Assembly (NCBI RefSeq): GCF_000377945.1 | Contig: NZ_KB898949.1 | Coordinates: forward strand, 1-37,085 | Direction of reading: 5' to 3' | Length of the DNA: 37,085 nt | DNA from: Thioalkalivibrio sulfidiphilus | GTDB lineage: Bacteria > Pseudomonadota > Gammaproteobacteria > Ectothiorhodospirales > Ectothiorhodospiraceae | Part shown: positions 12,865 to 35,865 of the stretch, piece after piece | Position numbering within the stretch: the stretch's first letter is position 1 | Layout of the letters: every line of letters begins with the position of its first letter | Program-made: the position numbers and the translations under genes | The notes under the pieces: model-generated | What the model was told of the DNA's origin: nothing | The model's database searches: none | What the model saw: the letters and a program-made list of their open reading frames with translations, nothing else

Positions 12865-13680
12865 TCAGCGAGTAAAGAACAACTCCGGATCCACCGGCGT
12901 CCGATTGAGATACACCCCCCAATGCAGGTGCGGACCCGTGACCCGGCCGGTCATGCCCATGGTGCCGAGCCGCGCACCGCGTTCCAGCCGTTGCCCTTCC
13001 TCAACGCCGATGCTGTCCAGGTGCGCGTAGAAGCTCAGCAGACCGTGGCCGTGGTCCAGCATCACCGCCTTGCCGGCATAGAAGAAATCCCCCGTGAGGA
13101 TCACCCGCCCCGGTGCGGGCGCGTGGACGGGCGTGCCCACGGGCGCGGCGATGTCCAGACCGCTGTGGGGATTGCGTGGCTGATCGTTGATGAAGCGGCG
13201 CAGGCCGAAGCCGCTGGAGAAGCGACCCTCGGAAGGCACGGTGAAACCGAAATCGGGCGTTGCATCCGACCAGGTGGCCAGGGCTGCACGGATGCGCACG
13301 CGGTCCGCCTCGATGCGCTTGAGATCATCGGGTCCCGGGCTCACCATGCGCTCCTCGCGGATGGTGATGCGGCTCTCGGCATAGTCCCGATGCTGCACCG
13401 TGAAGCCGTGCCGCGAGCGACGCCCGTCGGGCCAGGTCACTTCGATGCGCTGCTCTCCTGGCTCAAGGGACAGGGGCAGACCGACCACCGCGCGCCAGCC
13501 GTTCTCTGTGCGCACCACCGCGACCCGTTCACCGTCGAATTCTGCCCGGGGCGCATCTTGCGATGGGCCCAGGTCCAGGATCGCCACGCCGCCCGGTGCG
13601 GGCAGGGCGGTGGGCAAGGCCAGCAGCAGGGAGGGGGAGAGGCAAAGCAGCAGGAACAGGAGCGAGCGCATGGCGTTCAT
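12865..13680 (-). CDS. Secreted M23-family metallopeptidase (LytM domain)
   Basis: This 271-residue protein has an N-terminal signal peptide (MRSLLFLLLCLSPSLLLALP). A middle beta domain follows, then a C-terminal peptidase M23 domain. The zinc ligands are visible in NPHSGLDIAAP (HxxxD) and in GPHLHWGVYLN (HxH). With all ligands present it is probably an active endopeptidase acting on peptidoglycan cross-links in the periplasm, rather than a degenerate activator. The ATG at 13680 or the one at 13671 gives a good signal peptide; the upstream open frame runs into repeats. It converges with der. Confidence 0.88.
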   Translation of the reverse strand: MNAMRSLLFLLLCLSPSLLLALPTALPAPGGVAILDLGPSQDAPRAEFDGERVAVVRTENGWRAVVGLPLSLEPGEQRIEVTWPDGRRSRHGFTVQHRDYAESRITIREERMVSPGPDDLKRIEADRVRIRAALATWSDATPDFGFTVPSEGRFSSGFGLRRFINDQPRNPHSGLDIAAPVGTPVHAPAPGRVILTGDFFYAGKAVMLDHGHGLLSFYAHLDSIGVEEGQRLERGARLGTMGMTGRVTGPHLHWGVYLNRTPVDPELFFTR

Positions 13681-13734
13681 GCTATCACGGTGCGGTGTCC
13701 GACCCTGTGTAGCGGTAGGAGGAAGCATTGATTT

Positions 13735-13858
13735 GTCACAGAGAGGCCACAGAGAGGTCACAGATATCAAAGAGCGTTAAAGGCGCTTTTGGTGTAGATC
13801 CGGCCTCAGCCCGACGCCGGAGGTTGCAGAAGTCGCGCATGTCGGGCTGAAGCCCGAC
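13735..13858. repeat. 11-nt-period array and GTCGGGC palindromes upstream of the M23 gene
   Basis: GTCACAGAGAG and GCCACAGAGAG (13735-13756) followed by GTCACAGAT give an 11-nt period with the same core as the CTCTGTG arrays on the other strand. A degenerate half of a palindrome lies near 13795-13816. An exact GTCGGGCTGAAGCCCGAC (13841-13858) is identical to the one at 9234. No gene is supported in 13681-13891. Confidence 0.7.
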
Positions 13859-13891
13859 CTTGTATGTTGAGCAGGTCTGGTTTGATTGGGC

Positions 13892-14019
13892 GGCAGTTTG
13901 GGACATCCATAATCCATGATTCTCTGTGACCTCTGTGCCCTCTGTGGCAAGACCCTCTCGATTTGAACGGGTGAAAAGACCTCACCAAACCCGTGCTAGC
14001 ATTGCGCCATGAAACGCCC
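13892..14019 (+). repeat. First copy of a 128-bp perfect direct repeat (aminotransferase leader)
   Basis: This segment is identical over 128 bp to 14173-14300. It contains the element start GGCAGTTTGGGACATCC, a CTCTGTGNC array, the leader, and the ATG with the first codons of the aminotransferase gene (ATGAAACGCCC). Here the frame is broken at once by another element copy, so it is a non-functional duplicate of the gene's 5' end. Confidence 0.97.
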
Positions 14020-14172
14020 GGCGGCAGTTTGGGACATCCATCAACGGCAGTTTGGCAGTTTGGGACATCCATAACCCATGATTCTCTGTGGCCTCTGTGC
14101 GGCAGTTTGGCAACGGCAGTTTGGGGGCAGTTTGGGACATCCATAATCCAGGGGGGGCAGTTTGGGAGGGGG
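14020..14172 (+). mobile_element. Cluster of GGCAGTTTGG-type element copies
   Basis: Between the two 128-bp repeats lie seven more copies of GGCAGTTT, starting at 14023, 14046, 14054, 14101, 14115, 14126 and 14156. Together with 13892 and 14173 this makes nine. Five of the nine extend to GGGACATCC; the other four stop after TTTGG or TTTGGG and run into the next copy, twice with G-runs of seven. The copy at 14054 keeps about 46 nt of similarity, including a CTCTGTGGC unit. There is no coding capacity. I infer remnants of a small non-autonomous element, but no transposase is present. Confidence 0.6.
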
Positions 14173-14300
14173 GGCAGTTTGGGACATCCATAATCCATGA
14201 TTCTCTGTGACCTCTGTGCCCTCTGTGGCAAGACCCTCTCGATTTGAACGGGTGAAAAGACCTCACCAAACCCGTGCTAGCATTGCGCCATGAAACGCCC
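14173..14300 (+). repeat. Second copy of the 128-bp direct repeat (functional leader)
   Basis: This copy is identical to 13892-14019 and runs into the intact aminotransferase gene, so its last 11 bp are coding. It includes a hairpin-capable segment (ACGGGTGA near 14249 with TCACC and ACCCGT near 14262-14276) and no good Shine-Dalgarno sequence. The gene's present leader is therefore made of element and array sequence. Confidence 0.97.
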
Positions 14301-22338: not shown

Positions 22339-23144
22339 TGCGACGACTCGCGTCCGTGGTGTGTGCCATGTCCCTCCTGCTCAGCGCCGCCGTGGGATCC
22401 GCCGCCGAGACCCTCATCGAACTGCCCACCCGGGCGGGTGTGATCCAGCCCTTCCTGCTGCGGGAGGCGCCGAATCCGGTGGGTGTGGTGGTGCTGTTTG
22501 CCGGTGGCCATGGACGCTTGGGGCTGCACCGGGAGGACGATGCCGTGAAGCTCGACTGGGGGCGCAACAACTTTCTGGTGCGTAGCCGGGTCCATTTCAC
22601 GGACCAGGGATTTCACGTGCTGCTGGTGGATGCACCTTCCGACCGCCGGGGCGAGGCGGGCATGCTGGACGGATTCAGGCACAGCGCCGAGCACATGGCG
22701 GACCTCGCGGCGGTTCTGCAATGGGTCAATGATCGCTTCGGGCTGCCGGTCTGGCTGGTGGGCACCAGCCGGGGCACGGAATCGGCCACGGCCTTGGCTT
22801 TGCACGCGGGCACGGGGATCCAGGGCCTGGTGCTCAGTGCACCCATGACCCGGGAAAACCGTCGTGGCCTGTCCCTGCTGGAGATGACGCTGGATGCGAT
22901 CCATGTGCCGGTGCTGCTGGTGGCCCATCGCCAGGACGCCTGCCGCAGCACGCCGCCGGAAGGGGTGGAGGAACTGGAGGTGGCCCTGGTGCACGCGCCC
23001 CGGGTGCAGGTGCAGTGGTGGGAGGGGGGTGAGGCGCCCCGGGGAGAGCCCTGCCAGGGGCTCACGCCCCACGGATTCCTGGGCATTGAGCGGGAGGTCG
23101 TGCAGGGCATGAGCGGATTCATGTCTGCGAACCAGACGCGCTGA
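22338..23144 (+). CDS. Secreted alpha/beta hydrolase-like protein
   Basis: This 268-residue protein has a cleavable signal peptide (about residues 1-23, ending VGSAAE). A hydrolase-like fold follows, with a strand-turn GVVVLFAGGHGR, a nucleophile-type elbow LVGTSRGTESA and a C-terminal histidine in LTPHGFLG. Two cysteines (DACRST and GEPCQG) could form a disulfide after export. The family is not certain; the substrate is unknown. The last 35 codons and the following terminator are repeated 272 bp downstream next to a small element. Confidence 0.75.
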   Translation: MRRLASVVCAMSLLLSAAVGSAAETLIELPTRAGVIQPFLLREAPNPVGVVVLFAGGHGRLGLHREDDAVKLDWGRNNFLVRSRVHFTDQGFHVLLVDAPSDRRGEAGMLDGFRHSAEHMADLAAVLQWVNDRFGLPVWLVGTSRGTESATALALHAGTGIQGLVLSAPMTRENRRGLSLLEMTLDAIHVPVLLVAHRQDACRSTPPEGVEELEVALVHAPRVQVQWWEGGEAPRGEPCQGLTPHGFLGIEREVVQGMSGFMSANQTR

Positions 23145-23250
23145 CTTGGGTGCTGCCCGCCAATGCAAAAAGCCCCCGGCGATGCTACCGCGAGGGGCTC
23201 TTGGGCTGGGTGTCAGCAGATCCGGTTGTGGCGTCGCCTTGAACGGTTTG
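23038..23250 (+). repeat. First copy of a 213-bp perfect direct repeat (3' end of hydrolase gene)
   Basis: This segment is identical to 23310-23522. It covers the last 35 codons of the hydrolase, its stop, the leftward terminator hairpin and the first 10 bp of the TTTGGGACATCC element. The repeat period is 272 bp. Confidence 0.97.
23167..23199 (-). terminator. Leftward intrinsic terminator, copy 1
   Basis: On the minus strand AGCCCC (from 23199) and GGGGCT (to 23171) form a stem and TTTTT (23171-23167) follows. It faces the leftward kinase/queF transcript. The hairpin would also be made by the rightward hydrolase transcript, but without a T-run. Copy 2 lies at 23439-23471. Confidence 0.75.
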
Positions 23251-23310
23251 GGACATCCAAAATCCATGTCCCCTTAATCAATGTGAAGAGTTATGGATGT
23301 CCCCAACTTC
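23241..23310 (+). mobile_element. 70-bp element with imperfect terminal inverted repeats, copy 1
   Basis: The left end reads GAACGGTTTGGGACATCCAA, and the right end read inverted is GAAGTTGGGGACATCCATAA. After a 2-nt gap these agree closely, so the element has imperfect inverted ends of about 20 bp. It has no coding capacity. It lies exactly between the two 213-bp host repeats; the junction to the second host copy is at the element's right end (CAACTTC then CCGGGG). The core matches the units at 13892-14190. I infer a miniature, non-autonomous mobile element. Confidence 0.6.
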
Positions 23311-23311
23311 C

Positions 23312-23416
23312 CGGGGAGAGCCCTGCCAGGGGCTCACGCCCCACGGATTCCTGGGCATTGAGCGGGAGGTCGTGCAGGGCATGAGCGGATTCATGTCTGC
23401 GAACCAGACGCGCTGA
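23312..23416 (+). pseudogene. Duplicated orphan 3' fragment of the hydrolase gene
   Basis: This is the second copy of the last codons (RGEPCQGLTPHGFLGIE and on to SANQTR-stop), identical in sequence to the intact gene's end but with no start or upstream gene. It arose by the 272-bp tandem duplication and encodes nothing on its own. Confidence 0.9.
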
Positions 23417-23438
23417 CTTGGGTGCTGCCCGCCAATGC

Positions 23439-23471
23439 AAAAAGCCCCCGGCGATGCTACCGCGAGGGGCT
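23439..23471 (-). terminator. Leftward intrinsic terminator, copy 2
   Basis: This is an exact copy of the terminator at 23167-23199. It is the first terminator met by the leftward kinase transcript, so it is probably the one in use. Confidence 0.75.
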
Positions 23472-23523
23472 CTTGGGCTGGGTGTCAGCAGATCCGGTTG
23501 TGGCGTCGCCTTGAACGGTTTGC

Positions 23524-23593
23524 GAACGGTTTGGGACATCCAAAATCCATGTCCCCTTAATCAATGTGAAGAGTTATGGATGTCCCCAACTTC
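23524..23593 (+). mobile_element. 70-bp element, copy 2
   Basis: This copy is identical to 23241-23310 and has the same ends. It is followed by ACTCCCC and then the TCACACC heptad array. A partial extra left end (GAACGGTTTG at 23513-23522) sits directly in front of it. Confidence 0.6.
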
Positions 23594-23603
23594 ACTCCCC
23601 GCC

Positions 23604-23687
23604 TCACACCTCACACCTCACACCTCACACCTCACACCTCACACCTCACACCTCACACCTCACACCTCACACCTCACACCTCACGCC
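23604..23687. repeat. (TCACACC) x 11 heptad array
   Basis: Eleven perfect TCACACC units (23604-23680) are followed by TCACGCC. The TGA stop of the kinase gene (23681-23683, read on the minus strand) is formed by the last unit. This is the most homogeneous heptad array in the window and is probably young or still slipping. Confidence 0.97.
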
Positions 23688-34911: not shown

Positions 34912-35050
34912 GGAGATAAGCGATAGGCGAGAGAGGGTGATGCGAAAGGCGCGAAACCACCCTCACCCTGGCCCTCCCCCTGAGGGGGAGGGGATTTATA
35001 CTCTGGACGCCTCACGCCTCACGCCTCACGCCTCACGCCTCACGCCTCAC
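34905..35050. repeat. Composite repeat: heptads, palindrome, (GCCTCAC) x 6
   Basis: The left heptads GGCGTGA, GGAGATA, AGCGATA, GGCGAGA (34905-34932) begin at the DUF938 stop. Next comes GAAACCACCCTCACCC (34953 on), the same 16 bases as at 4178, leading into a hairpin CCCTCCCCC/GGGGGAGGG (34972-34992). Six perfect GCCTCAC units (35009-35050) then run up to the stop of the convergent parvulin gene. The layout matches 4156-4287 without the GTAGG hairpin. Confidence 0.88.
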
Positions 35051-35052
35051 GC

Positions 35053-35865
35053 TCACTTCACCTCGATCTTCGCCGCGGCGCGCAGGTCGCCGATGTAATC
35101 CTGCAGGGCGCGGTTGTCGAGGATCTGCGCGACCCGGTCACGCACCGCCTCGAAGGGCGGCGGTTCGGAGCTGCGGGTATCTTCCAGCAGGATCACGTGC
35201 CAGCCGAACTCGGTCTGCACCGGCTCGCTGCTGTAACTGCCTTTCTCCATGGCCTGCACGGCTTGGGAGAAGGCCGGCACCATGGCATCTAGGGTGAACC
35301 AGCCCAGATCCCCGCCCATGGGGCCTGAAGGGCCGGTGGAATGCTCACGGGCCAGTGCCTGGAAATCACCGCCGGCCTCCAGGGCGACGATCACCTCGCG
35401 GGCATCGGCCTCGCTGTCCAGCAGGATGTGGCGGGCCTTGTACTCGGTGCGTTCGATGGCCTGGATCTGGCGATCGTATTCCGCGCGCAGCTGCTCCTCG
35501 GTGTACTCCTGGTCCAGTCGCCGGTCGATGAGCGCGCCGACCATCAGGTTGGTGCGTGCCCGCTCCACCTGGCGCTGGATGTCAGGATCCTTGTCCAGTC
35601 CCTGCTGCAGCGCGGCCTGACGCAGCAGTTCCATGTTGATCATCTCGTCCAGCACCTCGTCCGGCAGCAGGCTCTCGCCGGGTCGGGTCATGCGCTGCAG
35701 GTTGAGGAAGTCCTGGAAGTCCGCCTCGCTGATGGCCACGCCGTTGACCACGGCGATCGCCTCGCCATTGATCTGGGCCTGCGGCGCCTCGCCGCGGCCA
35801 CAGCCGGTGATGAGGGCGGCGGCCAGCAGGCCGGTGCCCAGGATGTGATGAATGCGCAGTTTCAT
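35053..35865 (-). CDS. Parvulin-type peptidyl-prolyl isomerase lipoprotein (PpiC/PrsA-like)
   Basis: This 270-residue protein has a lipobox (ALITGC, Cys22). A SurA_N-like helical region covers about 40-120 (NGVAISEADFQDFLNLQRM). A rotamase domain runs from about 135 to 225 (YKARHILLDSEADAREVI, GGDLGWFTLDAMVPAFSQAV, TEFGWHVILLEDTR). It probably folds exported proteins at the membrane. AAGGAA sits 7 nt upstream of the ATG at 35865. It is the third gene after yciB and yciI, a common order; the SurA/PrsA/PpiC subgroup cannot be settled by eye. Confidence 0.88.
   Translation of the reverse strand: MKLRIHHILGTGLLAAALITGCGRGEAPQAQINGEAIAVVNGVAISEADFQDFLNLQRMTRPGESLLPDEVLDEMINMELLRQAALQQGLDKDPDIQRQVERARTNLMVGALIDRRLDQEYTEEQLRAEYDRQIQAIERTEYKARHILLDSEADAREVIVALEAGGDFQALAREHSTGPSGPMGGDLGWFTLDAMVPAFSQAVQAMEKGSYSSEPVQTEFGWHVILLEDTRSSEPPPFEAVRDRVAQILDNRALQDYIGDLRAAAKIEVK

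Follow-up and report, generated by a model that had tools for sequence, protein, structure and literature searches.

Anchored series of truncated copies upstream of an aminotransferase gene in Thioalkalivibrio sulfidiphilus and their candidate link to a REP-associated tyrosine transposase

A duplicated leader belongs to a series of copies with one start

How does the leader of a gene, together with its start codon and first codons, come to stand twice in front of the same coding sequence? The question was raised by a locus in the window (the whole stretch of DNA analysed, 37,085 nucleotides from Thioalkalivibrio sulfidiphilus), where a 128-bp segment upstream of an aminotransferase gene was confirmed to be present twice and exactly (13892-14019 and 14173-14300, offset 281), with the identity ending sharply on both sides. 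The 153 bp between the two copies were likewise confirmed to consist of G-runs and partial copies, among them GGCAGTTT, GGCAGTTTGG, GGCAGTTTGGG and one of 47 nt that shows two differences. An initial reading made from the letters of this DNA, here called the sequence-only reading, had taken the 128-bp copies as the flanks of one inserted element. They are instead the two longest members of a series that shares one 5′ start. All of the partial copies lie in one orientation and begin at (C)GGCAGTTTG, running on to varied lengths (GGCAGTTTGG, GGCAGTTTGGG, GGCAGTTTGGGACATCCAT, the 47-nt copy and others), and because of this common start the cluster, termed site 1, was treated as a single series of nine copies, of which the first and the last are the longest and extend past the aminotransferase promoter and ATG (Table 1). 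The copies of site 1 stand head to tail; each starts from the same place, which is about 10 nt 5′ of a GGACA(C/T)CC core, and their ends vary.

It had also been proposed that the element replaced the promoter region of the gene. This was not borne out, because a promoter-like segment (TTGAACGGGTGAAAAG..ACCCGTGCTAGCAT..ATG) is intact in the gene-proximal copy and is conserved in the ortholog of a related single-contig genome of 3,464,554 bp (G004; the genome of the window, a 69-contig draft, is denoted G000). G004 also supplied the comparison with a genome lacking the element at this locus, its ortholog having one leader and no element. The 17-mer GGCAGTTTGGGACATCC, by which the sequence-only reading had defined the element, was found at five exact positions in the window and at none elsewhere in the 3.05-Mb genome; with up to three mismatches allowed, nine occurrences were found in the window against 0.11 expected by chance. 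The exact 17-mer was absent from 57 relatives, because its first bases are locus-specific: the first five belong to site 1, and the defining part of the element proved to be the core GGACA(C/T)CC(A). A plasmid search using the site 1 locus and an Rfam search each returned zero matches.

Two further features of this region were recorded. A dispersed repeat, made of CTCTGTG(A/C/G)CCTCTGTG units in inverted pairs with an internal GTCGGGCTGAAGCCCGAC palindrome, lies at 13734-13950 and 14201-14231, and all five genomes of the genus were represented among dozens of copies. An extended -10-like box, CCGTG(C/A)TAGCAT, stands a few bases 5′ of the ATG in both divergent genes (13660-13690 and 14272-14292), which suggests nearly leaderless transcripts for both.

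Table 1. Features of the two duplicated sites in the window
Feature	Position	Strand	Remarks
Copy 1 of the long unit	13888..14022	+	prefix (GG)CGGCAGTTTG, core GGACATCC, CTCTGTG repeat, promoter and ATGAAACGCCC of the aminotransferase; exact part 13892-14019
21-codon ORF (MKRPAAVWDIHQRQFGSLGHP, then stop)	14009..14074	+	opened by the displaced duplicate start codon; reaches into the truncated copies
Truncated unit GGCGGCAGTTTGGGACATCCAT, then CAAC	14020..14045	+	
Truncated unit GGCAGTTTGG	14046..14055	+	GG overlap with the next unit
Truncated unit, 47 nt	14054..14100	+	two differences from the long unit
Truncated unit GGCAGTTTGG and CAAC	14101..14114	+	
Truncated unit GGCAGTTTGGG	14115..14125	+	
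Truncated unit GGCAGTTTGGGACATCCATAATCCA and G-run	14126..14155	+	
Truncated unit GGCAGTTTGGGA and G-run	14156..14172	+	
Gene-proximal long unit	14173..14300	+	continuous with the gene; intact promoter, true start codon ATG 14290
Aminotransferase gene, 388 aa	14290..15456	+	orthologous leader in G004 single-copy, without element
Site 2, host segment beside the element	23038..23240	-	two copies; read on the - strand, it continues the duplicated unit on its 3′ side
Site 2, 70-nt paired-arm element GAACGGTTTGGGACATCC...GGATGTCCCCAACTTC	23241..23310	.	hairpin-forming
Site 2, second copy of the host segment, then truncated end	23310..23523	-	truncated end GAACGGTTTGC on the + strand
Site 2, second copy of the 70-nt element	23524..23593	.	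100% identical

A second site and a family of loci share the core

A second duplication of the same kind (23038-23593), as well as slightly differing sibling copies elsewhere in the genome, had been overlooked. At this site 2, the 70-nt paired-arm element and 203 bp of adjacent host DNA are exactly duplicated, with offsets of 272/283. On the minus strand the unit begins at GAAGTTGGGGACATCC and continues through the element and the 203 bp of host DNA, and on the plus strand a truncated GAACGGTTTGC stands before GAACGGTTTGGGACATCC; both arms of site 2 follow the anchoring rule found at site 1. Beside the element, about 12 perfect copies of the 7-mer CCTCACA occupy 23602-23684, and a comparable array, of the 7-mer ACGCCTC, spans 35007-35056.

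Genome-wide counts were obtained by pattern searches, in which diverged copies can be missed. With one mismatch allowed, GTTTGGGACAYCCATAA was found 25 times in G000 and 10 times in G004, and the same pattern search gave zero occurrences in 45 other genomes of the family. Most of the loci in the two genomes consist of clustered truncated copies whose prefix is locus-specific, and three arrays of 15-36 units were found (contigs C60 and C65 of G000, and 2.92 Mb in G004). Paired inverted arms forming a hairpin, as in a REPIN with its two inverted REPs, were seen at site 2, on contig C3 and at loci of G004; site 1 has one arm only. Duplications of host DNA around the genome, which the sequence-only reading had proposed to look for at copies of the 17-mer, were observed at other loci of the family (window 23038-23593, C3:21.5k and several clusters); the exact 17-mer itself is confined to the window. 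That reading was upheld in taking the locus for a small-element phenomenon, different from ordinary insertion of an IS with the short target repeat that it leaves: the classical IS or MITE signature, a short target-site duplication at both ends, was not seen, and the duplications are one-sided in register and measure about 10 to 283 nt. Nor do these arms have GTAG directly 5′ of a short palindrome as a GTAG-tagged REP has; the prefix is locus-specific, with GTAG present at the C3 elements only.

An assembly error would be conceivable in a 69-contig draft in which two of the arrays sit on short contigs (C60, C65). The identical architecture was found in single-contig G004 and in other genera, however, and we regard this explanation as very improbable.

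A putative HUH transposase gene lies near two of the arrays

The 2.92 Mb array of G004 adjoins a gene whose 336-aa product carries a Y1 transposase domain. A 98% identical transposase gene is located at C65:628-1635 in G000, where the array lies upstream of it and a small two-gene pair stands in between. The two genomes that carry the GTTTGGGACAYCCATAA family thus share this gene, which counts in favour of a link with the enzyme; furthermore, one unit of the C60 array includes the leader of the C65 transposase gene up to ATGACCAG. The two small ORFs between array and transposase leader on C65 (L254) resemble an antitoxin/PIN-domain toxin pair and are absent from the G004 locus.

Relatives of the transposase were detected in 54 of 369 gammaproteobacterial genomes. 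H71 and H73 (HUH) and Tyr183 are invariant in 33 relatives, an invariance from which Y183 would be expected to have the catalytic role. PF01797 (Y1_Tnp) matched the G004 copy at 23.6 bits against a cut-off of 23 and the G000 copy at 20.6 bits, the NCBIfam RAYT model gave 45 bits, under its cut-off of 80, and a PDB search by sequence profile returned no significant match. The enzyme is therefore classed as a probable REP-associated tyrosine transposase (RAYT/TnpA_REP) of the HUH Y1 type, the profile matches being marginal and the invariant candidate catalytic residues supportive. It has a long C-terminal part, the region in which the TIRYT/subclass 2.1 group carries a helix-turn-helix extension, with zero matches to Pfam HTH profiles; its gene is flanked by terminal inverted repeats in place of GTAG REPs, which is the arrangement of that group.

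The surroundings of related genes were surveyed at 33 transposase loci from about 30 gammaproteobacterial genomes, with 40 further loci as a hold-out. RGACAYCCA was present upstream of the transposase gene in 26 of the 33 (0.2 expected), mostly 75-150 bp before the start codon, and in inverted form downstream of it in 17. Among the hold-out loci it was present upstream in 20 of 40 (0.35 expected); a recognisable core was absent from half of them, which counts against the explanation preferred below. Truncated series flank these transposase genes on both sides in many genera, and their prefixes are unrelated: TGGCCTGGGA (L209), AAATAAATA (L212), ATAGCCAAATA (L215), AGAACAACCA (L218), GGGCTTTACCC (L220), CACACAAAA (L223) and GCCAAACGC (L227). 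In the transposase leaders L234-L238, a TTGACA-like -35 box follows a few bases after the core, so that the promoter of the transposase gene overlaps the end that the enzyme is presumed to recognise; autoregulation of the gene is possible.

Parts of transposase genes are themselves copied in this manner. At 1.805 Mb of G004, the leader, ATG and N-terminal codons of a related transposase stand in consecutive nested copies ending at different codons, and dispersed 5′-anchored transposase fragments in genomes G001 and G003 all have an identical start point. These copies are the transposase-gene counterpart of the aminotransferase event in the window. At about 1804-1806 kb of G004 (L256), inverted GTCGGTGACAAATGATTTTCATTAGTCACCGACCCC repeats were also seen to break up truncated transposase copies.

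The 5′ start is fixed and the 3′ end varies

In 36 clusters comprising 100 adjacent core pairs, the 5′ identity ends no more than 13 nt from the core in 96 pairs, and the 3′ identity spans 8 to 97 nt. At 76 cores in terminal position at RAYT loci, repeated 7-mers become suddenly frequent at offset -10 and thin out gradually 3′ of the core. Prefix 7-mers (-10 to -7) were repeated in 27 of 75 termini, compared with 9 of 75 for positions -16 to -13, and in the paired test the discordant termini were split 20:2 (p=1e-4) and the discordant genomes 11:1 (p=0.006), p-values to be read with the knowledge that this junction-adjacent control was picked after the profile had been seen. With a more distant control (-24 to -21) the enrichment was not significant per genome (p=0.07); in arrays this control is uninformative, since its positions there belong to the unit before. 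Prefixes differ from locus to locus (GGCAG, GAACGG, GGGCTCGG, AATGG, GGACGG, GTAC, AACAAGA, AGAACAACCA and ATAGCCAAATA among them), and the breakpoint therefore tracks the distance from the core and not its own sequence.

The anchored pattern was observed at both arms, in opposite orientation, at C3:16.8k, at window site 2 and on the downstream sides of RAYT genes. An RNA or cDNA origin, in which units would run from a transcription start and arise by template jumping of a reverse transcriptase, had been considered because the units copy gene leaders; it was rejected, as the anchored pattern points inward from both element ends.

Proposed mechanism and its rivals

The explanation that we prefer, with a rough probability of 0.6, is that the transposase nicks at a fixed distance from the core and that imprecise copying and rejoining adds 3′-truncated copies of the downstream DNA. 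What the sequences show is the common 5′ start, the varied 3′ ends, the inward orientation at both arms, the association with the transposase clade across many genera and the local host DNA within the copies; the part played by the enzyme is inferred. The GGACA(C/T)CC arms would be the cognate ends (terminal inverted repeats, standing singly or paired as miniature elements) of the RAYT/TIRYT-type HUH transposase encoded at C65:628-1635, acting in trans. The enzyme would recognise the arm as single-stranded DNA and cut about 10 nt 5′ of the core, within locus-specific DNA, after which either the free 3′ end would be lengthened or part of the downstream strand would be transferred, over a variable length, with rejoining at the same cut. 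Such an event would be one-ended and rolling-circle-like, at the enzyme's own site, and each would place a new copy, starting at the cut and truncated at its 3′ end, before the intact copy. The longest product made beside the aminotransferase gene would have passed the promoter and the first codons, leaving both duplicated. HUH enzymes leave a free 3′-OH able to prime synthesis or to attack a phosphotyrosine, as described in PMC8266576, so the chemistry needed by this mechanism exists. The breakpoint is sharp on average and varies by a few nucleotides within loci; this small spread of starts, like the extra bases at junctions (CAAC, G-runs), is beyond what the simple model accounts for. The lone arm at site 1, which does not fold into a hairpin, and the Pfam Y1_Tnp scores close to the cut-off also weigh against it.

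Truncated tandem copies could also arise by replication slippage or template switching at a hairpin, with no transposase, if a polymerase stalled at the arm, left at a constant place and restarted downstream. Paired arms do fold well (z -1.9 to -3.4), some junctions at site 1 show 2-nt GG overlaps, and the G-runs at junctions look slippage-like. The boundary, however, lies about 10 nt outside the core regardless of the prefix sequence, the lone arm at site 1 forms no hairpin (z +0.9) although its cluster is among the richest, and the pattern tracks this transposase clade across genera. Slippage was therefore judged unlikely. Somewhat less likely again is that a TIRYT miniature element transposed in the ordinary way, one-ended or in tandem, with its own left end as the target, so that fixed-left, variable-right pieces were inserted beside existing copies instead of being copied in place. 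That anchored pieces do move is apparent from the dispersed 5′-anchored transposase-gene fragments at other loci and in other species, and clusters are often located at existing ends; sites 1 and 2, however, duplicate immediate local host DNA and have a locus-specific prefix, and copying in place is therefore favoured over insertion.

Nicking by the transposase followed by local copying might extend beyond these genomes. At a little under even odds, the whole TIRYT/subclass 2.1 clade would be a local DNA-reiteration engine, cutting about 10 nt 5′ of a GGACACCC end and producing 3′-truncated series from the DNA alongside, in which promoters and start codons would be copied too, whether they belong to host genes or to the gene of the enzyme itself.

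Relation to known systems

TIRYTs are already known, as are REP/REPIN tandem clusters that take in flanking DNA. Literature searches of open-licence PMC papers turned up no account of the anchored truncated architecture, and a description may exist elsewhere. TIRYTs or TIRtrons (Di Nocera et al. 2013, PMC3733652) correspond to TnpA_REP subclass 2.1 (Quentin et al. 2018, PMC6006769). They resemble the present system in that an HUH protein of the long Y1 type, about 330 aa, is bordered by terminal inverted repeats, in the occurrence of these repeats as dimers and clusters too, and in a published repeat motif, GGGGWSAS, compatible with GGGGACAC of the core; unlike here, no truncated 5′-anchored series or fixed breakpoint is reported in the sections consulted (PMC3733652, PMC6006769). 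For subclass 2.1, Quentin et al. state that no REP-like sequences were found near the genes (PMC6006769); cognate REP-like DNA had gone unrecognised there.

The REPIN tandem clusters of Pseudomonas fluorescens SBW25 (Bertels and Rainey 2011, PMC3116915) likewise consist of tandem units with flanking host DNA, some adjoining RAYT genes, but there whole units are near-identical and include both flanks, whereas here only the 5′ start is shared and the 3′ cut-offs are many, down to about 10 nt. REP/BIME sequences and the E. coli TnpA_REP (Corneloup et al. 2021, PMC8266576) offer a likeness in an HUH enzyme that cuts single-stranded DNA beside a palindrome at a chosen site; the arms here differ in being mostly without a GTAG tag and in their core. 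The same paper describes the mechanism by which REP-associated transposases disseminate their elements as unknown (PMC8266576).

The same fingerprint, found in many bacteria beside genes for transposases that cut single-stranded DNA, hints at how these poorly understood enzymes spread DNA. The mechanism can be tested directly, since the core is conserved, the cut is predicted to fall about 10 nt 5′ of it and the product, anchored truncated copies, is readable. If true, these enzymes would also make new promoter and leader copies before host genes, a regulatory variation invisible to searches for ordinary insertions. In the one-ended transposition of other HUH elements, the Helitrons and IS91, one end is fixed, the other varies and adjacent host DNA is captured. 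These features, the capture included, are in common with the present series; the transposase belongs to another family, and the products here are reiterated at one site.
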